Virus record (IMG/VR): IMGVR_UViG_3300035698_003406
Span: 1 to 28,507 of that record
DNA from: a virus
Direction: 5' to 3' (one strand)
Length of the DNA stretch: 28,507 bases
The notes under the pieces were generated by a model. That model saw only the letters and a list, made by a program, of their open reading frames with translations. It ran no database searches and had not been told where the DNA came from. A program made the position numbers and the translations under genes. Shown here piece after piece: positions 3,584 through 28,100 of the stretch (position 1 is the first letter of the stretch; every line of letters starts with the position of its first letter).

Positions 3584-3909
3584 TACATAAACCCAAACAT
3601 ACGTTTGATGTTATCCCAGTTATTTTCTGTATTGGCCATCATGTATTCTTCAACCTTGTCGCGTTCGTCACTTGCGATCTTGTCAAGCGTCGGGCCTTCG
3701 TAATTCGGTATATACTTATCTGCCTTCACCGACTTGCCCGACGCCGCCGATGCAATCAAAGCCGCGATGATGCCGGTCTGCATGTCAACCCGCGACCCAT
3801 CCCAAGGATCAATCGAGTTCAATACGCCGAACTCCTTGATCTGTCGCACCGTGAACCGATTCGCAACCCAACACGGGTCTTTCCCGAATTGGAGGGCGAT
3901 CTTCAACAC
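3583..3909 (-). CDS. Tail assembly chaperone, -1 frameshift extension (T part)
   Basis: This frame encodes the C-terminal extension of the tail chaperone. GTG 3909 could start a 108-residue product, but no good Shine-Dalgarno sequence precedes it. The frame is open upstream through 3936, where a slippery A AAA AAC lies at the end of the preceding ORF. A -1 slip there would give a 255-residue fusion (138 + 9 + 108). The motif IDPWDGSRVDMQTGIIAALI resembles the T-domain signature of lambda GT-like proteins (DPW...R.DL..GIIA). The final residues fall next to the tape-measure start, as in lambda G/GT. I think it is made mainly as the fusion. Confidence 0.8.
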   Translation of the reverse strand: MLKIALQFGKDPCWVANRFTVRQIKEFGVLNSIDPWDGSRVDMQTGIIAALIASAASGKSVKADKYIPNYEGPTLDKIASDERDKVEEYMMANTENNWDNIKRMFGFM

Positions 3910-6680: not shown

Positions 6681-7331
6681 TCACAAGTAGATTCTGAAGG
6701 GTTCGATCGCCCGCTTCAACATTGCATCATCTTCGGCGATTTCACGCGATTCATATTCACCTGCGGCGGCGCGCAAGATCGCAACCTTCAACCCCGGTGG
6801 CACTGCCGACGCGGCTGTGTAACCTGCAACGTATTCGACAACAAGTGAATCTTCGTTGCGCATACCCGACGGCCACGAATACCCGGCGTTGATCAACACA
6901 CGCGGCGGTTCGCGCAAGGCGTCGAGTCGATACGAAGCGGTTGCGAACGTAGTCTCGGTGTTGTCAGACGTGTAATACACGATTGACGATATCGACACAA
7001 CGGGCACTGAAGGTATTGTGATGTCTTCGGCGGCGAATACGCCAGACGATACAGGTATGCCATACGCGATATACGCCTGTGCGCGCGCTAGGCTGTTCGG
7101 TGTGATTGCATCAAGTCGAAGTTGACGTGTTTGCGTCATCATGCAGCGCGACGTCATGCGTTCAACGTAATCGGTTGCCATGGTCAACGATCGGTTGATG
7201 TCGGCGATTTGATCGTCGTCCATGTCACCGACGGCTGGTATGCCGACGTAGCGGGCGAATTCAGCCGACGTGACCGCAAGGGCGGGTGTTGCGCTCGTTC
7301 GCGTGTCGGTGTAGTTGTTTTCCATCATCAT
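6681..7331 (-). CDS. Head-tail connector protein (gp6-like adaptor)
   Basis: A 216-residue protein of the phiE125 gp8/HK97 gp6-like connector type, which forms the ring below the portal. Residues near the N-terminus (DDDQIADINRSLTMATDYVERMTSRCMMTQTR) match the pattern of adaptors, with helix, then 'a..yve..tgr....q...l.ld'. The middle holds the P-V-V-S-I-S-S-I-V-Y-Y strand and PPRVLINAGYSWP, followed by VEYVAGYTAASAVPPGLKVAIL ('v.y.aGy....vP..l..Ai..l') and a final helix. Three ATGs in a row (7331, 7328, 7325) are possible starts; TTG 7349 is also open but lies inside a hairpin. The spacing to GGAGG is explained by that hairpin. Confidence 0.83.
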   Translation of the reverse strand: MMMENNYTDTRTSATPALAVTSAEFARYVGIPAVGDMDDDQIADINRSLTMATDYVERMTSRCMMTQTRQLRLDAITPNSLARAQAYIAYGIPVSSGVFAAEDITIPSVPVVSISSIVYYTSDNTETTFATASYRLDALREPPRVLINAGYSWPSGMRNEDSLVVEYVAGYTAASAVPPGLKVAILRAAAGEYESREIAEDDAMLKRAIEPFRIYL

Positions 7332-7340
7332 AACGTTGGT

Positions 7341-7362
7341 GGGGGCCAATTTCTTGACCCCC
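7341..7362 (-). promoter_or_regulatory. GNRA-capped hairpin between Shine-Dalgarno and ATG of connector gene
   Basis: On the minus strand the RNA can fold as GGGGGUCAA-GAAA-UUGGCCCCC: nine pairs including one U-G wobble, closed by a GAAA tetraloop. GGAGG lies at its 5' edge and the first ATG (7331) nine bases after its 3' edge. Folding would shorten the apparent distance between the Shine-Dalgarno sequence and ATG, as described for T4 gene 38. No U-tract follows, so a terminator is less likely. Confidence 0.6.
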
Positions 7363-7421
7363 CTCCAAACGTGAGCGAGTTTACCTACTTGTGTAAGTCA
7401 CACAAGCACCGCTCCCGTCGA

Positions 7422-7916
7422 TTAGGCGGCTGTGAATGCGGTCGTCAAGCCGTCGATTGCATCATCGGAATCCAATGCCGGCCCGCGCTTCGGGTTGTCG
7501 AGGATCGCATACGCGGTGACGTTGCTAGCACTCACCCCAGTACTGGTATACGTGTATTTCAGTCGCACGTAATCTCCGATACCGATATACCCGACACGCT
7601 GGAAGTCAGAATCGGTCGCGGCAACACCATTGACGACAAGGAACGCACCCGACAGATCAGCGGCGGCAACAGCGGAGAAGTCGGTTGATTCTGGCACCGA
7701 CATATCGGTGTCCATGTCGGCTTCTTCAACGGTGATCGTGAGATAGTTCGAAGTGTCTTCACCGGTGAATGTGCCCTGAATCGCGAGCAATTCAACGGCG
7801 TCGTTACCACGCACGCTCACGGCGTCTGAATAGAAACCGGTGTGTGCGTGATCGGCGAGTGCAACAAGTTCAACCACTTCGATCGACTTGTGAATATTCT
7901 GGATTGTAACGGCCAT
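7422..7916 (-). CDS. Hypothetical head-region protein
   Basis: A 164-residue acidic, beta-rich protein with an excellent ribosome-binding site (GGAGGG, seven bases before ATG 7916). Segments such as VSVRGNDAVELLAIQGTF, NYLTITVEEADMDTDMS, GAFLVVNGVAATDSDF and VRLKYTYTSTGVSASN look like strands of a beta sandwich. The SYxxx ending (AYAILDNPKRGP) is typical of phage small head proteins that pack on or near the capsid. It lies between the solenoid-like protein and the connector. A capsid decoration or stabilising role is a plausible inference, without a recognised motif. Confidence 0.68.
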   Translation of the reverse strand: MAVTIQNIHKSIEVVELVALADHAHTGFYSDAVSVRGNDAVELLAIQGTFTGEDTSNYLTITVEEADMDTDMSVPESTDFSAVAAADLSGAFLVVNGVAATDSDFQRVGYIGIGDYVRLKYTYTSTGVSASNVTAYAILDNPKRGPALDSDDAIDGLTTAFTAA

Positions 7917-8679: not shown

Positions 8680-9918
8680 CTATGCCATCGTGAGTTTGAC
8701 GATTGCTTCAGGATGTCGCACACGACCGTCATTCATCATGAAGGCGTACAACCGCAACGTGGCCTTGCGAAGCTGTGTGACGTCATCGCGCTGGAACACC
8801 ATGTCCATTGCATCGCCGATGATGTAACCGCGTTTCAGGTTCGCTAGAACCAACGGGATCAACCCGGTTGTTGAATCGGGCATGTCTTGCGCGATGACGA
8901 TCGGTCGGCCAAGAATGGTCATCGGTTGCTGATGTTCAAGTCCATACGGATTCAACATCGGGCGACTTTCGCCATCTTGGGTGTTCCATATCTCACCCAA
9001 CGTGGTTGAATTCATCAACCACACCGCGTCGTTCCAATACGGCTGTTTCAAGGTCGTCAGCATCGTTGCGAAGCTTTCCCACGAGATGTCGGTTGCACTG
9101 TCGCTGTTCGTGACGGCACCGATGTTGGTGTTCGTCAAGATGCCTTCGGGCGCACCCTTGCCGGAACCGGTCAAGAATTCGCTACCTTCTTTCTTCGCAA
9201 ACTGTTCCGCAAGGTCTCCGCGAAGCAAGCTTTCGATCGACAAGGCGGAGAACATCTCACTCGTCATCGAGTAATCGAGGTATGCACGAATGAACGTCGG
9301 GGTAAGTGTGATATCACCAAACGTCGGGTTCGTCGATTCGTCGATCTGTTCAACTTCAGACGTTCGGGCGGCTGAAGAATTTCCGGTCTTGCGACCGATC
9401 GTCAATGTCTGTGTTGACATCGGCACGACCATCGAATGCGCGCGGATCGGTGAAATCTCGACGATGTCAGCGATCAGTTGATTGATGAACGTCGGGGGCT
9501 TGACGATTGCACCGGCGGAAGCCGAATCGCCGATCGTGATCGCCTTCATGACGTGTTTGTCAAGGTTTTCGCCGTCGGCGACCTTGTTACACCATTCGCC
9601 GAATTCGACGAATTGCTTGCGCGATTCGATCTCATGTGCAGCGTTGGTTGCGGTTTCGCCACCGAGTTCCGGGCGGCTTGCTTGCGTCTCCAACACGCCG
9701 ATGCGCTTGATCAAATCTTCGTTCGCCTTCGCAAGCGACTCTTCGATACTTCCGGTTCCGAGATTCTTTTCAAGCGCGGCGATCTTCTCATCGCTCAACG
9801 TGCGCACGGCGGCGTCTGCGTCGCGAAACGCCTTGACGTCATTGACAAGCTGAACAACGGCACCTGGCACTTGCGTGAGCGTGAGCGCGGCATCAAGTGG
9901 TGTGATTTCGGGCAACAT
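8680..9918 (-). CDS. Major capsid protein, HK97 fold
   Basis: A 412-residue HK97-type capsid protein. Residues 1-130 form a helical, charged delta/scaffold domain (VKAFRDADAAVRTLSDEKIAALEKN, ESLAKANEDLIKRI), which the adjacent prohead protease would remove. The shell domain follows with recognisable family blocks: SASAGAIVKPPTFINQL, SPIRAHSMVVPMSTQTLTIG, PTFIRAYLDYSMTSEMF, EGSEFLTGSGKGAPEGILTN, the WLMNSTTLGEIW helix, and GRPIVIAQDMPD. It ends with the typical RLYAFMMNDGRVRHPEAIVKL. ATG 9918 has GGAGG seven bases upstream. The gene overlaps the protease by 26 bases and ends in TAG. Confidence 0.95.
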   Translation of the reverse strand: MLPEITPLDAALTLTQVPGAVVQLVNDVKAFRDADAAVRTLSDEKIAALEKNLGTGSIEESLAKANEDLIKRIGVLETQASRPELGGETATNAAHEIESRKQFVEFGEWCNKVADGENLDKHVMKAITIGDSASAGAIVKPPTFINQLIADIVEISPIRAHSMVVPMSTQTLTIGRKTGNSSAARTSEVEQIDESTNPTFGDITLTPTFIRAYLDYSMTSEMFSALSIESLLRGDLAEQFAKKEGSEFLTGSGKGAPEGILTNTNIGAVTNSDSATDISWESFATMLTTLKQPYWNDAVWLMNSTTLGEIWNTQDGESRPMLNPYGLEHQQPMTILGRPIVIAQDMPDSTTGLIPLVLANLKRGYIIGDAMDMVFQRDDVTQLRKATLRLYAFMMNDGRVRHPEAIVKLTMA

Positions 9919-15139: not shown

Positions 15140-15771
15140 GACGATAACCGCCTTGATATCACAAACTTGACCGCCCACGACGACGACACGCCCGCCGAAG
15201 TCTGAACGCGGTGATAGTTGCCTTGGAATGAAAGCCTCCCGTTGTCAACGTCAACACCCGCTTGTGAAGTTGCTTCAAACATCCCACGTGACGAATTGCG
15301 CGAATACGCCAAGCGGGTATCGAAGATGATCGATCCGACGTTGAATATGCTAACAGCCGATGCGCGTGCGAATGTCGCGGGGTCGTTGAACCATCGATCG
15401 GTGTATGATCGTTCGATACCGAAGCCGACGTGAAGGCTGTCGGAACCATAGAGTCGTTCGGCGGTTGTCGTGATCATGTAGAAGTCGTGTTCGCGGATGT
15501 CGGCGTAGCGAACGCCGAGTTTGTATCGATTGATGATGGTCGATGCCTTCATGTCGACGTCGGTGAAGCGGTTGCCCGCGTCGCGTTCGTGTTGAAGTTT
15601 AAGGTCGAAGTGGTTGGCACCCAACGCGATAGCATACTTACCTTCGACCATCCAATCGAATGGGGTCGCCTCAACACTTGCGGGGCGTGCGAAGAACCCG
15701 ATACTCACGGTCGAAGTGGTGGCGGATGCGATCGATGTGATCGACAGCAAGATCAAGATGATGGCATACAT
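15136..15771 (-). CDS. Secreted, outer-membrane beta-barrel-like protein
   Basis: A 211-residue protein with a clear signal peptide (MYAIILILLSITSIASA, predicted cut after A-S-A). The mature part alternates polar and hydrophobic residues in strands (HFDLKLQHERD, RYKLGVRYADIREHDFYMITTTAERLYG, SLHVGFGIERS, SIIFDTRLAYSRNS, RLSFQGNYHRVQTSAG), as in small outer-membrane barrels such as lambda Lom (about 206 residues). It does not end in the usual terminal Phe/Trp. ATG 15771 has GGGAGG seven bases upstream. The stop overlaps the holin start by 4 bases. Exact role is unknown; lysis or surface modification is inference. Confidence 0.72.
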   Translation of the reverse strand: MYAIILILLSITSIASATTSTVSIGFFARPASVEATPFDWMVEGKYAIALGANHFDLKLQHERDAGNRFTDVDMKASTIINRYKLGVRYADIREHDFYMITTTAERLYGSDSLHVGFGIERSYTDRWFNDPATFARASAVSIFNVGSIIFDTRLAYSRNSSRGMFEATSQAGVDVDNGRLSFQGNYHRVQTSAGVSSSWAVKFVISRRLSS

Positions 15772-16056: not shown

Positions 16057-16107
16057 GGGAAACCTCCATGTTGGGGGTTGGGTAATTGTAATTAAGAATT
16101 GTTTGAC

Positions 16108-16135
16108 ATTATGAAGATAAGTTTTCAAGAGTCAA
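16108..16135 (-). promoter_or_regulatory. Leftward sigma70-type promoter (PL1)
   Basis: Read on the minus strand: -35 TTGACT (16135-16130), 16-bp spacer, -10 CATAAT (16113-16108). Both boxes match the consensus in 5 of 6 positions. Transcription would start about 16100, roughly 45 bases before GTG 16056, and drive the leftward head-tail-lysis genes. Confidence 0.6.
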
Positions 16136-16177
16136 TCCGCAATACGTGTGAATAGTGGCGGGGGTTGATAGCGAAAA

Positions 16178-16207
16178 ATGATAAATCTTCCGATGACGAC
16201 TTGACAA
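16178..16207 (-). promoter_or_regulatory. Possible second leftward promoter (PL2)
   Basis: Read on the minus strand: -35 TTGTCA (16207-16202), 18-bp spacer, -10 TATCAT (16183-16178). The -35 box shares bases with the rightward -35 box (TTGACA 16201-16206), so the two promoters would be back to back. Spacing and match are weaker than PL1. Confidence 0.4.
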
Positions 16208-16228
16208 TGATAATTACGATGTTATCAT
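16201..16228 (+). promoter_or_regulatory. Rightward sigma70-type promoter (PR)
   Basis: Perfect -35 TTGACA (16201-16206), 16-bp spacer, -10 TATCAT (16223-16228). It faces away from the leftward promoters and would start a transcript near 16235 that reads through the rightward replication genes. The spacer and -10 are built from an inverted repeat, pointing to repression. Confidence 0.65.
16207..16228. promoter_or_regulatory. Inverted-repeat operator candidate within PR
   Basis: ATGATAA (16207-16213) and TTATCAT (16222-16228) form a perfect 7-bp inverted repeat with an 8-bp centre, lying between the -35 and -10 of PR. A further direct half-site ATGATAA occurs at 16178-16184, in the -10 of PL2. 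A dimeric repressor could bind both sets. No repressor gene is visible in the window. Confidence 0.55.
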
Positions 16229-16258
16229 TACACCGAAGCACCGATCAATACATATGAA

Positions 16259-17127: not shown

Positions 17128-17442
17128 ATGAAATGGCAAATGACCGGATGGACAACGAACGCCGATGGTGCGTTGAACGTGAAGATGATATCGGGCGATC
17201 TTGAACACGCAACATTGGTTCTTGAACGCGGGGCATTCAACCCGATGCGCGTCGGGCACATCGTGCACACCATTGATCACACGACGCTTGAAGATGTGTT
17301 GACGATCGACGATGTCGAGGACTTCATGTGGTCGGATGCATCACAGCAAATGACGGTCACAACGTTCGATGAAGGTGCGAATGTGATCAATATCGATGTA
17401 GATGTCATCACCGTCTTGAATGAGTTGCGTAAAATAAAATGA
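17128..17442 (+). CDS. Hypothetical protein
   Basis: A 104-residue protein with ATG 17128 preceded by AAAGG at seven bases. It looks like a small beta-rich domain (MKWQMTGWTTNADGALNVKM, HATLVLERGAFNPMRVGHIV, QMTVTTFDEGANVINID) with a C-terminal helix (DVITVLNELRKIK). No family is recognised. Codon use is back to that of the replication genes, so the foreign module probably ends at about 17.1 kb. A non-coding stretch with a candidate promoter follows. Confidence 0.6.
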   Translation: MKWQMTGWTTNADGALNVKMISGDLEHATLVLERGAFNPMRVGHIVHTIDHTTLEDVLTIDDVEDFMWSDASQQMTVTTFDEGANVINIDVDVITVLNELRKIK

Positions 17443-17460
17443 CAATCTTTCATTTTTCAT

Positions 17461-17489
17461 TTGTCATTCACGACTTTTCATTGTATCTT
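17461..17489 (+). promoter_or_regulatory. Candidate sigma70 promoter upstream of 17538 gene
   Basis: TTGTCA (17461-17466), 17-bp spacer, TATCTT (17484-17489), preceded by an AT-rich stretch at 17430-17460. Match is 5/6 and 4/6. It would serve the gene starting at ATG 17538. It overlaps no long gene in this frame and is a moderate candidate. Confidence 0.4.
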
Positions 17490-17537
17490 CTATTTGAAGG
17501 CACTAACGAACAACGACAACGAACAAGGGGCGACAAG

Positions 17538-19054: not shown

Positions 19055-19614
19055 AAACGGTGAAGAGTATCGAATCATTACTCACGGCGGCGGTGTCCGC
19101 GATACGTGCCCTATTGCTTCTGTGTGTCGTTGGGGCGGTCGTGGCGGTCACGGACGGTGAATACATGGCAATCATACCAATCGCAATCTTGCTCGCTGTC
19201 ACGGCAGGGTTATGGATCGGTGTTACACAATATGCACGCAACGAAATACAAGCGACAATACGATCGCTTGAAGACTTGCACGAACAGGTTGATGTGAATG
19301 ATATCACGATCTTGCCGAATCGAGGGGTTGCATACGTCGGTGGGGCAGTGTTGATGAAGACGTTGTCGCATATCAACGGCAACACCCCAACCGAATATGA
19401 TCCGAACATGGTGACGATGTTACAGAATTCAATCAGATCACCGATACGTGGTGACATATATACGATCACGTATCACGAGGGTGAACTTCGATTTTTCAGA
19501 TGTTCGCCATTCACAAACGCATGCTCGAAGACATTCACTCGCCCGCTTAATATCGCGAATGCTCGGGTGTTGGCAAATCACGGCTTTCTCGCACGCACCC
19601 CGGAGTTGAAGTGA
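19051..19614 (+). CDS. Two-TM membrane protein
   Basis: A 187-residue protein. ATG 19051 overlaps the previous stop as ATGA and is preceded by GGAAGG. Two hydrophobic segments near the N-terminus (about residues 13-33, ALLLLCVVGAVVAV, and 38-58, IIPIAILLAVTAGLW) suggest a hairpin in the inner membrane. The rest is a soluble, mixed domain (QATIRSLEDLHEQVDVND, GDIYTITYHEGELRFFRC). No family is recognised. The end overlaps the sliding-clamp-like gene by one base (TGATG). It could be a membrane-bound replication or exclusion factor, but this is not supported directly. Confidence 0.6.
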   Translation: MKTVKSIESLLTAAVSAIRALLLLCVVGAVVAVTDGEYMAIIPIAILLAVTAGLWIGVTQYARNEIQATIRSLEDLHEQVDVNDITILPNRGVAYVGGAVLMKTLSHINGNTPTEYDPNMVTMLQNSIRSPIRGDIYTITYHEGELRFFRCSPFTNACSKTFTRPLNIANARVLANHGFLARTPELK

Positions 19615-20504
19615 TGAATGAAACAACCGTGATATTGACGAAAGACATCTTGAAGTCGTTGCACGCTTGTGTTGACTTCGTGCCGAAGATCAAGCCGCAC
19701 GACGACCCACATCGGATCATACACTCGGTGAATGTGCGAACACATGGGTCGCAACTCGAAATATCCGCGACCGATGGCTTTTCGGTGATCGTGTTTGCGC
19801 ATGATGTTGAAGATATTGAAACGTGGCAATCGGTGTCGATGCGTATCGATCGCGAAGCCTTGCGGCGGTTCTTAAACCCTATTGGCAATAAGCCGGTCGA
19901 TATCGAATGCAAGTTCACGCACGAACCACCAGCGAAGCAAGTGCGGTTGACGATTGGCGGTAGTGGTAGACATGTGATGATGGATGTTGTTGATGATGAA
20001 TTCGCAATCGAAGCTCACATCAAGTCGAAGGTGCGCGAATATCTCGACATCGAAGCGAAACCATTGCTGAACGCGATGAAGCGGGTGCGAAACGCGCACG
20101 CAACCCCGTCGAATGCAACGATCACGATTGATTGGGGGCGTGAAGATCAACACGTGTTCGCATACGATCGGGAAAGCAAGTCAGTTGGAACCGAATGGCT
20201 CACGTTTGACTATTGCCCGCTGTGGGATGAACCGTGTGAAGTGAACACCATACCATATTCGCGTGTCCAACTATCCCACAAGCTGTTCAAGAAGGTTGTG
20301 AAGGCGTGCGGCGTGGGTGCGCGGGATCACATCACTATCGAATTCCATCACGCATACACCGAACCCATGATGATCATCAACGACGAATACAAACACGCCG
20401 AATGCGTTCGCGGGTATCTGAAACCGATGATCGACAAGCTACATGCGGGTGGTGAATTCGGGCCAAGTCGCGAAGATGTGTTGAAGACTCTCGACGTGAA
20501 ATGA
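19614..20504 (+). CDS. DNA polymerase III sliding-clamp-like protein (DnaN-like)
   Basis: A 296-residue protein that appears related to the bacterial beta clamp, which tethers DNA polymerase to DNA. Clamp-type motifs: HSVNVRTHGSQLEISATDGFSVIVF ('..v.l...g.l.l.ATDg.r..'), a MRIDREALRRFLNPI segment, and a C-terminal domain with VQLSHKLFKKVVKACGVGARD, HAYTEPMMIIND and GYLKPM ('..lmPm'). It is shorter than DnaN (about 366 residues), so one domain is likely reduced. ATG 19614 overlaps the upstream stop and has GGAG at good spacing. It lies just before a helicase gene. Confidence 0.62.
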   Translation: MNETTVILTKDILKSLHACVDFVPKIKPHDDPHRIIHSVNVRTHGSQLEISATDGFSVIVFAHDVEDIETWQSVSMRIDREALRRFLNPIGNKPVDIECKFTHEPPAKQVRLTIGGSGRHVMMDVVDDEFAIEAHIKSKVREYLDIEAKPLLNAMKRVRNAHATPSNATITIDWGREDQHVFAYDRESKSVGTEWLTFDYCPLWDEPCEVNTIPYSRVQLSHKLFKKVVKACGVGARDHITIEFHHAYTEPMMIINDEYKHAECVRGYLKPMIDKLHAGGEFGPSREDVLKTLDVK

Positions 20505-20681: not shown

Positions 20682-22094
20682 GTGAAATACAACATGACCG
20701 ACCTTGGCAACGCCGAACGACTTGAACACACGCACGGCAACGACTTGCGATATTGCCCAGAATTCGGATATTGGTTGGTATGGGATGGCGTGCGGTGGAA
20801 GGCGGACCCGGATCGGTCGGATGTGCAAGCCCGTATCGTCGACACGGTGCGGTCGATCGAAGGCGAACTCGACATCAGTGCGATACAAGACGATCAAGTC
20901 GCGTTGCTGAAGCACGCCGAAGCGAGCGAAAGCGGGTATTCGATGGGTCAAATGGAAAAGATCGCGAAATCGTTACCATCGATGATCGTGCACTCTGAAG
21001 AATTGGATTCCGACCCGATGTTGTTGAACACACCGAACGCGACGATTGACTTGAACACGGGGTTGGCGAGGGCACACAAGCGAATAGATTACATCACGCG
21101 CATGATTCCGGTTGTGTATGAGCCTGCCGCGACCAATTCACCACAATGGGACGATTACTTGTTGACGACGTTCAGGAACAAAAAGATCACGGCATACATG
21201 CAACGGGTGGTTGGGTATTGTCTCACCGGGTTGACGGATGAACAGTGTTTGTTCCTGTTGATTGGCGGCGGTAGTAATGGCAAGACCGTGTTTCTTGAAT
21301 TGTTGCGGGGGTTACTCGGGAGCGATTACAGCCAACAGGCTGATGCGAAGTCGTTCACCCCCCGGGCGGGTAACATACGCAACGATCTCGCGGCGATGAA
21401 AGGTGCGCGGATCGTCAACGCGATCGAAACGAACGAAGGTGAGGTGTTGGATGAAGCGTTGGTGAAATGGATCACGGGTGGTGATAGAATTCGGGCGCGG
21501 TTTCTCAGGCAAGAATACTTTGAATACATGCCAGAATTCAAGCTTTTTCTATCGACGAATCATGAACCGGAAATCAAAGGTAGTGACCCGGGCATATGGC
21601 GACGCATCAACATCATACCATTTCGGCACCCGGTTGAAGTCAAGGATCAGATACCAAGACTTTGGAATCATATACTGCACGATGAAGATTCGGCAATTCT
21701 CAATTGGGCGTTGAAAGGTTTGAAGATGTGGCAACGGAATCGTCTCGACCCGCCGAAGTCATTGATCGATCGTGCGAAACAGTTGAGAGATTCAAGCGAC
21801 CCGGTGCACGTATTTATCAATTCTCATTTCGTAACGCTCGATGCGGATTGCATCACTTTGAAATCAAAAGTGTGGGATTGGTATATCGCCGCAACGAAGT
21901 TATCAGATGATATTGAGTGGCAACCCATGTCAAAAATCGAATTCGGGCGCAAAATGATGTCCGCCGCACCCCTTTCTTCGGTGCGTGAGCGCGGAACTGG
22001 TCAAAGAGCGTGGAAGGGTATACGCATCAACGAAATGGCAACACATCAAGTGTGGGGTGAGGGTTATGAAGGTGAGAGGTCTATAGATACTTGA
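20682..22094 (+). CDS. SF3 replicative helicase (D5/P4 family)
   Basis: A 470-residue replicative DNA helicase. Walker A is GGGSNGKT at 195-202, Walker B ARIVNAIETNEG around 242-253, the SF3 sensor FLSTNHEPEI around 289-298, and the arginine region GIWRRINIIPF at 304-314. An N-terminal D5_N-like part is present (PMLLNTPNATIDLNTG, ...RVVGYCLTG). Family members often carry an N-terminal primase; here there is none, so a primase may be elsewhere or supplied by the host. GTG 20682 follows GAGGGG at six bases. Stop TGA is inside the first TTGAC repeat of a possible origin. Confidence 0.92.
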   Translation: MKYNMTDLGNAERLEHTHGNDLRYCPEFGYWLVWDGVRWKADPDRSDVQARIVDTVRSIEGELDISAIQDDQVALLKHAEASESGYSMGQMEKIAKSLPSMIVHSEELDSDPMLLNTPNATIDLNTGLARAHKRIDYITRMIPVVYEPAATNSPQWDDYLLTTFRNKKITAYMQRVVGYCLTGLTDEQCLFLLIGGGSNGKTVFLELLRGLLGSDYSQQADAKSFTPRAGNIRNDLAAMKGARIVNAIETNEGEVLDEALVKWITGGDRIRARFLRQEYFEYMPEFKLFLSTNHEPEIKGSDPGIWRRINIIPFRHPVEVKDQIPRLWNHILHDEDSAILNWALKGLKMWQRNRLDPPKSLIDRAKQLRDSSDPVHVFINSHFVTLDADCITLKSKVWDWYIAATKLSDDIEWQPMSKIEFGRKMMSAAPLSSVRERGTGQRAWKGIRINEMATHQVWGEGYEGERSIDT

Positions 22095-22120
22095 CTACTT
22101 TTGACAAGATTTGACAAATA
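22091..22120 (+). repeat. Three 10-bp phased TTGAC repeats (iteron-like)
   Basis: TTGACTACTT, TTGACAAGAT and TTGACAAATA follow one another without gaps, one helical turn apart. A fourth copy TTGACACATT is at 22173-22182 and an inverted one (TTGACAACTT on minus) at 22293-22302. Directly after the array comes an alternating AT run (22117-22131). Confidence 0.75.
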
Positions 22121-22198
22121 TATATATATACTAATACCATACTGGATTGGAGTTAGATACGATTCTCGACACTTGACACATTTTTCACCCATTACCTT

Positions 22199-22224
22199 AC
22201 ACGCACACATACGCACATGCGTGT
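22199..22224. repeat. Inverted repeat in the candidate origin
   Basis: ACACGCA (22199-22205) and TGCGTGT (22218-22224) form a 7-bp inverted repeat; inside it ACGCA (22211-22215) and TGCGT (22218-22222) form a tighter one around CA. It could bind a dimeric protein or form a cruciform. It is not followed by a U-tract. Confidence 0.5.
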
Positions 22225-22330
22225 TGGGGTTATCATACGTGAAAAAGCTGTCATCTTGTCGGACGCCGATGGTATGGGCGTTTGGGCGAAATAAGTTGTC
22301 AAGGAACAATCACAACCGAGGAAACTGAAA

Positions 22331-23233
22331 ATGTCAGCAGAACACACGACCGACGCAACGACCGAAGAGATCGTATCAGAATTCAACATCTTTGACCCCG
22401 AAGTATCGTTTGAGATGATCAATTTGAACGACGTCGATGCCGTGATCACGAAAGCACGGTTCACGACGAACGACTTTGGTGGCGCATTTACCGATCGCGA
22501 TGGTAGAAGTATGAGTATTCCAGTGTTGGAAATCGACTTCGAGACCGCCGATGGTGAAACGACAGAGAACCTACTCGTATGCGGCAACGATACGTCATGG
22601 GCCGCAACCGCCGACGGGTTGAACTTGCGACCGCTGAAATCGGCGCAACAGAAGCTGAATAAGAAAGACAGCATGAAGCGGTTCACCGACACGCTTGTCG
22701 ATTCAAAGTTCCCATTGGCGAAGTTCGCCGACGACATGGAAGCGGGTATTTCGGTGGTCGAAGGTGCGGCGGTTCACTTGATTCAGGTGCCGATCAAAGA
22801 CAAAGACGGTAAGGTCAAGTTGAACAAGAAGGGGTTCCCAGTGACCGATCTGACCGTGTCGCAGTATTACCCCGACGGCTTGGGAACACTGAGCAACGGC
22901 ACGAAACCAGCGGAGCGTAAAGCACCGAAGGCGGAAACCGACGTGAATGATGGTGAATCGGTTGACGCGGCGGCGAAGTCTGTGATCGCGGCGTTGTTGG
23001 CAGATGAAGGCGTGTCGATCGCGCGTGCACAGTTGCGGAAGCAAGGCATGGGCATCACGTTGAAGCCCGCGACCGTCACCGATGATACCGCGCGTGATGA
23101 AATGGTCGCCGCGATCGCCGGGGTTGAACGCGCCGCGATCAGTAATCGAATGGCAGATGAAGCCTTTCTGCAGGAAGGTGAAATGGAAGGTTTGTGGGTG
23201 TATGTCGATGGTGTCTTGACCGCGTGTGAATAG
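22331..23233 (+). CDS. Hypothetical protein, possible ssDNA-binding protein
   Basis: A 300-residue protein with ATG 22331 after GAGGAA. The N-terminal 180 residues are beta-rich with conserved-looking parts (VDAVITKARFTTNDFGGAF, SIPVLEIDFETADGETTENL, VVEGAAVHLIQVP), which could be an OB-like fold. A charged linker (AERKAPKAETDVNDGES) follows, and then a helical C-terminal domain (VIAALLADEGVSIARAQLRK). It sits in the replication/recombination operon ahead of nucleases and a Sak4-like ATPase, where phages often carry an SSB. No acidic SSB tail is seen, and the assignment is inference. It stops at TAG 23231-23233. Confidence 0.55.
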   Translation: MSAEHTTDATTEEIVSEFNIFDPEVSFEMINLNDVDAVITKARFTTNDFGGAFTDRDGRSMSIPVLEIDFETADGETTENLLVCGNDTSWAATADGLNLRPLKSAQQKLNKKDSMKRFTDTLVDSKFPLAKFADDMEAGISVVEGAAVHLIQVPIKDKDGKVKLNKKGFPVTDLTVSQYYPDGLGTLSNGTKPAERKAPKAETDVNDGESVDAAAKSVIAALLADEGVSIARAQLRKQGMGITLKPATVTDDTARDEMVAAIAGVERAAISNRMADEAFLQEGEMEGLWVYVDGVLTACE

Positions 23234-27502: not shown

Positions 27503-27753
27503 ACGGGGCAAAGATGAAAGTCGGCAATCGCACGTATCAAGAATATCTTGAATCGACTCATTGGAAAGTATTCCGACGCATCGTGTTGGCATTCTGGGAT
27601 CAACATTGTTCGGTGTGCGGAAGTCTGCAAACATCCGCCGCGTTGCACATACACCACAATTCGTATGATCGGATCGGTGAAGAACGCTTATCCGACGTTG
27701 TCGTGTTGTGCCCGGCGTGTCATAAACTATTTCACGATGCGGAGAAAAAATGA
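27499..27753 (+). CDS. HNH-family protein
   Basis: An 84-residue HNH endonuclease-type protein. Core motif: CSVCG (Cys37, Cys40), LHIHHNSYDRIGEER (His52-His53, Asn54), and LCPACHKLFHD (Cys71, Cys74, His75, His79), so both zinc and metal ligands are kept. GTG 27499 overlaps the upstream stop as GTGA and has AAAGGGG six bases upstream; ATG 27514 is an alternative. Genes of this type in phages include homing endonucleases and packaging or recombination nucleases. The end overlaps the methylase start by ATGA. Confidence 0.8.
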   Translation: MNGAKMKVGNRTYQEYLESTHWKVFRRIVLAFWDQHCSVCGSLQTSAALHIHHNSYDRIGEERLSDVVVLCPACHKLFHDAEKK

Positions 27754-28100
27754 ATAAGAAACTCAAGGCACCGTTCCCCTACTTCGGTGGGAAGTCTCGC
27801 GTCGCGCCCATGGTATGGGAGCGATTCGGGGATACGAAGAACTACGTGGAGCCGTTCTGCGGATCGTGTGCCGTGCTGTTGGGTCGTCCTGCGTGGCCGG
27901 AAGGTGAGGTGCGATACGAGACCGTCAACGACAAGGACTGCATGATTGCGAACTTCTGGCGTGCCGTGAAGTATGCACCCGACGCAGTTGCGGAACACGC
28001 CGACTGGCCAGTGAACGAAGCGGACCTGCACGCACGGAACCGATGGCTCATCGGTCAACGTGAATCGCTGTATGATGCACTGGTAGCTGATCCTGAATAG
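27750..28100 (+). CDS. D12-class DNA adenine methylase, N-terminal part ended by TAG
   Basis: The first 116 residues of a Dam-like N6-adenine methyltransferase. SAM-binding motifs are intact: PYFGGKS (residues 10-16) and YVEPFCGSCAV (about 32-42). NDKDCMIANFWRAV follows, matching the family. The frame is then closed by TAG (28098-28100) after ADPE, exactly where the family continues '..y.DAkIAGWWvWG'. The following sequence keeps the same frame and the family pattern. A product of this length would lack the DPPY catalytic motif. Only 1 of 16 Leu codons across both parts is TTG, unlike the neighbours, which suggests recent transfer. ATG 27750 overlaps the HNH stop. Confidence 0.8.
   Translation: MNKKLKAPFPYFGGKSRVAPMVWERFGDTKNYVEPFCGSCAVLLGRPAWPEGEVRYETVNDKDCMIANFWRAVKYAPDAVAEHADWPVNEADLHARNRWLIGQRESLYDALVADPE

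Follow-up and report, generated by a model that had tools for sequence, protein, structure and literature searches.

The stretch of DNA analysed here, referred to throughout as the window, is a 28,507-base IMG/VR virus record. Terminal repeats were searched for and none was found over its 28,507 bases, so that the window is probably incomplete. Its gene content is that of a siphovirus-like phage. The minus strand carries tape measure, head, portal, protease and terminase genes, and a plus-strand arm, starting at about 16.3 kb, encodes an SF3 helicase, an RtcB-like ligase, a Sak4-like protein, an ERCC4-type nuclease and pieces of a methyltransferase. The latter are two same-frame open reading frames (27750-28100, and 28176 to the contig end), which match successive parts of DNA methyltransferase profiles, and the gene thus seems to be interrupted by a stop or split. 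A TerL search returned one locus, at 38%. Rfam and tRNA scans of the window gave no matches, and no primase was recognised in it. The region of interest is the gap of 236 bases between the stop codon of the helicase gene and the gene starting at 22331, and the features in and around it are as follows.

20682-22094, plus strand: D5/P4-type SF3 helicase gene, the probable initiator (GTG start, 470 aa)
22089-22117, plus strand: left repeat set of three 10-bp units with the consensus TTGACWA, read from the sequence
22107-22136, no strand assigned: AT-rich core and candidate DNA unwinding element, AAATATATATATATACTAATA, the least stable 30-bp segment of the window
22111-22140, plus strand: possible sigma-70-like promoter, TTGACA-18-TACCAT, matching at 10/12 positions and overlapping repeat 3 (equalled in 11% of shuffles of the region)
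22167-22261, no strand assigned: nested imperfect palindrome whose arms contain GACA/TGTC, from the z score of the DNA fold
22173-22178, plus strand: fourth copy of TTGACA, situated in the palindrome's left arm, read from the sequence
22296-22302, minus strand: inverted copy, TTGTCAA, read from the sequence
22331-23233, plus strand: next gene, 300 aa, of no recognised family

The helicase was assigned to the D5/P4 group. It matched Pfam D5_N (PF08706) at 3.8e-33 and 115 bits, against a cutoff of 22, and TIGR01613, the C-terminal primase profile of the P4 family, at 233 bits against a cutoff of 109; the Walker A motif GGGSNGKT was seen in the alignment. When the profile of the helicase family was compared with solved structures, the SaPI5 protein came first (8.6e-23). 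An AlphaFold2 model, built from 16 sequences (mean pLDDT 74, pTM 0.73, with the last ~20 residues unreliable), matched the African swine fever virus PrimPol (Z 23.9) and the SaPI5 primase-helicase 7om0 (Z 21.4) over residues 1-456. Within this model, residues 375-451 matched the DNA-bound winged helix of RFX, 1dp7, with a Z of 8.8 and 2.2 A over 72 of 76 residues, and the C-terminus (residues ~375-451) is accordingly predicted from the model to form a winged-helix domain. The 470-aa protein represents the helicase part only. The N-terminal extension possessed by most of those relatives that are annotated as primases is absent from the window helicase, which in this respect resembles Cch2 and some PICI Reps, also devoid of a fused primase domain. 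A 297-aa open reading frame of no recognised family (19611-20504) lies upstream of the helicase gene, at the position where relatives have the fused primase domain, and might encode a divergent primase. Single-protein scans of IMG/VR and of genome contigs gave no close relative of the helicase. The protein encoded from 22331 likewise had no match among phage records and no close relative in a single-protein scan of IMG/VR, and its predicted structure (pLDDT 34) was unusable.

The original prediction had placed three end-to-end TTGAC repeats, one helical turn apart, at the end of the helicase gene. These were found at 22091, 22101 and 22111, at an exact 10-bp step, as the units TTGACTACTT, TTGACAAGAT and TTGACAAATA, and the stop codon of the helicase gene (TGA, 22092-22094) does lie inside the first TTGAC. 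The further elements it had described were also present, namely an AT run following the third repeat (AAATATATATATATA, 22116-22130), a fourth copy and an inverted copy nearby (22173-22178 and 22296-22302), and a small inverted repeat, ACACGCA at 22199-22205 and TGCGTGT at 22218-22224. To the right of the AT region, therefore, there is one further direct copy and one exact inverted copy, accompanied by the degenerate inverted copies GTTATCA (22229) and GCTGTCA (22247), with no phasing among them; TTGTCAA, GTTATCA and GCTGTCA possibly make up a weak right-hand iteron set.

How far the array departs from chance depended on the measure applied. The search of the whole window that had been proposed for such clusters set the array apart in one respect, since no 5-mer of the window other than TTGAC occurs three times with a step of exactly 10 bp, but not in another, as the array is one of four three-copy phased chains in the 28.5 kb. 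Any 5-mer occurring three times at a 9-12 bp step arose in 0.3% of shuffles of the region and in ~20% of shuffles of the whole window. A tolerant phased-repeat score, in which 7-mers repeated at 9-11 bp are counted, and in which a link of the nearly self-complementary TTGACAA is counted once, placed the array at p = 0.058 relative to shuffles and at 0.155 relative to the other window segments. By repeat counts the values were 0.09/0.03/0.02 with shuffles as the reference and 0.42/0.41/0.16 with other segments as the reference, too weak to stand by themselves. The TTGAC array is thus real, yet by itself only borderline against chance.

The region of the AT-rich core has the lowest duplex stability in the 28.5 kb whether segments of 30, 50, 80 or 150 bp are considered, and among the four phased chains the TTGAC array alone stands beside the least stable DNA. 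Two other AT-rich gaps, at 16.08-16.23 and 17.43-17.53 kb, were considered as origins and rejected, both being less unstable and away from the helicase gene, and the former bearing a strong promoter in addition. The first of these (16080-16230) lies near the switch in gene orientation, has -35-like sites on both strands, and is probably a divergent early promoter region. The second (17429-17530) contains TTTCATT about three times together with a promoter-like TTGTCA-17-TATCTT, and is one of the three places in the window where the duplex is least stable.

A comparison with relatives carrying the same type of helicase had been suggested as a check, and it was made with loci drawn from IMG/VR, one-per-species genomes and phage records. 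This survey, which was not exhaustive and whose scoring was settled in the course of the analysis, yielded 36 usable loci, the window included, with less than 70% helicase identity among themselves. Phased repeats with a spacing of 9-11 bp were present directly behind the helicase stop in 15 of the 35 non-redundant relatives by both tests, and in 17 of the 35 when only p ≤ 0.05 against shuffles was considered, while a control place inside the helicase gene had them in 0 of 36 loci. About half of the 35 relatives had no significant phased repeats behind the stop. In loci with significant repeat counts, 40 of the 77 same-strand spacings fell at 9-11 bp, and the two 10-bp steps of the window fit this spacing. 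The repeat words varied from phage to phage (GTTACT, GGGTTA, GTTAAT, ACTATTCAC, AGCACAGAT, CGGGAGG, GACAACA and others), and at several loci, L135 and L147 for example, the word occurred in inverted orientation beyond the core. Phages of Enterococcus, Lactobacillus, Bacillus and Mycobacterium have gaps of ~140-310 bases with obvious repeats at the same place, and in those of Enterococcus, Lactobacillus and Bacillus an AT-rich core lies amid the repeats. The comparison thus bore the suggestion out as regards the place of the repeats, with words that differ.

These results bear on the view that the gap is ordinary AT-rich intergenic DNA with a coincidental short repeat. The phased-repeat score of the array and the frequency with which whole-window shuffles produce a comparable 5-mer would both be compatible with coincidence. 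Against it, the helicase gene is the one behind which arrays of this kind are enriched, and it is at the stop codon of this gene that the array lies, immediately next to the DNA of lowest stability in the window; we therefore regard chance as a rather unlikely explanation of the gap.

TTGACA is at the same time the consensus of a -35 box, and the gap could alternatively be a promoter or regulatory region serving the genes from 22331, in which the TTGACA copies would act as -35 boxes or operators and the AT run as a spacer or UP-like element. The TTGACA at 22111 is followed, 18 bp on, by TACCAT, a match of 10/12, and a 190-nt leader precedes the gene at 22331, within which a putative 25-codon open reading frame (22217-22294, MRVGVIIREKAVILSDADGMGVWAK) was noted. 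Moreover, the other main gap with TTGACA contains a near-perfect promoter at 16201 (TTGACA-16-TATCAT, 11/12), the best promoter-like site in the right half of the window. Stacked -35 boxes, the alternative that the original prediction had raised, nevertheless account poorly for the array, since a -10 element of 4/6 at 15-19 bp is available to copies 2 and 3 only: for copy 2 it is TATATA alone, and the best -10 for copies 1 and 4 and for the inverted copy does not exceed 3/6. A 10/12 match also arises in 11% of shuffles, and a promoter leaves unexplained the phased but differently worded repeats that relatives have at the same place. As an account of the gap by itself, a promoter region was consequently judged unlikely, if somewhat less so than chance.

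A promoter overlapping repeat 3 is, on the other hand, plausible, and it is compatible with an origin. Both functions might be present at once, the origin containing an embedded promoter from which transcription through the AT core would aid opening or priming and would also fire the downstream genes. Phage lambda is a known case in which transcription affects the activity of an origin. Here repeat 3 doubles as a -35 element and the -10-like TACCAT lies just beyond the AT core, but the match of the embedded promoter is within chance. We hold this combination to be a tentative possibility, less probable than the origin as such; being a refinement of the origin reading, its likelihood overlaps with that of the latter.

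The small inverted repeat described above proved to be the inner part of a larger palindrome, absent from the original prediction, which spans 22167-22261 and has the form CGACA..TGACA..TTTTTCAC // GTGAAAAA..TGTCA..TGTCG. As single-stranded DNA it folds with z scores of -5.3 on the plus strand and -5.8 on the minus strand, and none of 200 shuffles was as good. This palindrome could itself be the working origin element, with the repeats incidental, in the manner of the stem-loop behind orf904 of pRN1, which is needed for replication, and of a similar one after the replication gene of BIP-1 (PMC4234260). Among relatives, the segment behind the helicase outfolded all seven control segments in 11 of 19. 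In a window-wide scan, however, the palindrome ranked only about tenth among structured places, so that some ten other places show comparable or stronger structure; its score was equalled by 5% of the local shuffles and by 9% of segments from the window, and in a 140-nt fold scan the gap of the window itself did not beat its controls. The palindrome was thus rejected as the defining element, being too ordinary within the window, and we consider it improbable that it acts as the origin in place of the repeats. Single-strand folding is strongest elsewhere in the window, at 8926-9070 and 7321-7420 (z of about -6 and -5.5), the one place lying within the major head protein gene and the other mostly between the open reading frames 6681-7349 and 7422-7916.

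Known replication systems provide several close parallels to the arrangement seen here. The origins of SaPIs and PICIs lie immediately 3' of rep (PMC7581432, PMC6092414), and the C-terminal domain of SaPI Rep recognises iterons located directly downstream of its own gene (PMC7581432). The window shares with origins of this type a position immediately 3' of the initiator helicase gene, the first repeat overlapping the stop, a D5-family helicase with a C-terminal winged helix, in our case a predicted model, and an AT-rich candidate melting region behind the gene. It differs in that PICIs have two clear iteron sets flanking the AT region (PMC6092414), whereas only the left set is clear in the window, and in that SaPIs and PICIs are satellites while the window is a phage with terminase, capsid and tape-measure genes of its own.

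In the Streptococcus thermophilus phage Sfi21 (NC_000872), positions 34487-34784 are annotated as an 'origin of replication, 302 bp non-coding region', and this element is an origin activated by infection (PMC6356513). As in the window, the annotated origin overlaps, at its start, the 3' end of a D5-like gene and occupies the gap that follows, with repeats around an AT-rich core. Its word, in contrast, is GTTACT, at an 8-bp step and in many more copies, and the two helicases can barely be aligned (19%). Cch2 of SCCmec, likewise a D5-family helicase, offers a further likeness: its gene, as in the window, is followed by three short direct repeats, to which the C-terminal domain of Cch2 binds (PMC7581432). 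The repeat word differs, and the Cch2 site is itself a candidate origin. In pRN1, too, the origin directly follows the gene of an SF3 helicase that bears a winged helix, and it includes a long imperfect palindrome (PMC4234260), but pRN1 is devoid of iterons, and the repeats and AT core of the window are separate from the palindrome of the window. Finally, phage P4, whose alpha protein binds the origin repeats via a winged helix (PMC4234260), has a helicase of the same family (TIGR01613); alpha also has a Toprim primase within its polypeptide chain, whereas the window protein corresponds to the helicase part only.

Taken together, the position rule seen across the family, the AT core and the type of helicase, with the array as weak support, favour the gap at 22.09-22.33 kb as the replication origin of the phage, at which the winged-helix helicase would bind TTGACWA and melt the AT run, and we assign this reading a probability of about 0.72. 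It is favoured as well by the annotated origin of Sfi21 and by the published origins or candidate origins of SaPIs/PICIs, Cch2 and pRN1, which are situated just downstream of the respective helicase genes (PMC7581432, PMC6092414, PMC4234260). The likely phage origin proposed earlier beside the SF3 helicase is hence upheld by the layout of relatives, by published origins and by the AT core, and not by the array alone. Caution is called for, since the array is short, comprising two 10-bp steps, and borderline alone; the right-hand set is degenerate and unphased, and about half of the relatives are without phased repeats; TTGACA also corresponds to the -35 consensus; no close relative carrying the helicase was found in which TTGACWA could be compared; and GC skew points elsewhere, though it is confounded. 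A minimum of the cumulative skew had been expected at the gap and was instead located at 15,287, about 15.3 kb, where gene orientation flips. As this minimum coincides with the flip, on an incomplete contig, we consider the skew uninformative on the origin. After detrending of the right arm the minimum fell at 22,737, near the gap, a weak signal that is again confounded by gene orientation.

The D5-type SF3 helicase would, in our proposal, bind the TTGACWA repeats through its C-terminal winged helix and assemble as one or two hexamers beside the AT run. It would then melt the AT run and load onto the exposed strands, after which a primase and a polymerase would start forks. The overlap of the first repeat with the helicase stop suggests that the origin is passed on together with its initiator as a single cassette.

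In 2018, an arrangement of iterons and an AT-rich region immediately downstream of a D5-type helicase gene was described as unique to PICIs; from the survey, it looks widespread in phages. We lean towards the view that it represents a widespread class of origins in tailed phages and prophages, in which a lineage-specific word of 7-10 bp, once per helical turn, is read by the winged helix of the cassette itself, and of which the window would be one short-array example. The position and the parts are already known, and the phage is a new case. A probable origin has in this way been located, from sequence alone, for a phage with no cultured relatives, and for uncultivated phages and prophages in general the rule would be to seek the origin behind the stop codon of the D5/P4-type helicase gene. 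If the proposed class is real, a recognition code of the winged helix could be put to the test on its many helicase/iteron pairs, and the diversity of these pairs could show how a winged helix picks its repeat. Two prophage-like loci from genomes of Hyphomicrobiales and Variovorax, L135 (array following the stop at 3869) and L147, have large and regular arrays downstream of their D5 helicase genes, with CGGGAGG and ACCCCCC words at 9-11 bp steps and an inverted far side, and are good candidates for experiments on this class of origin.
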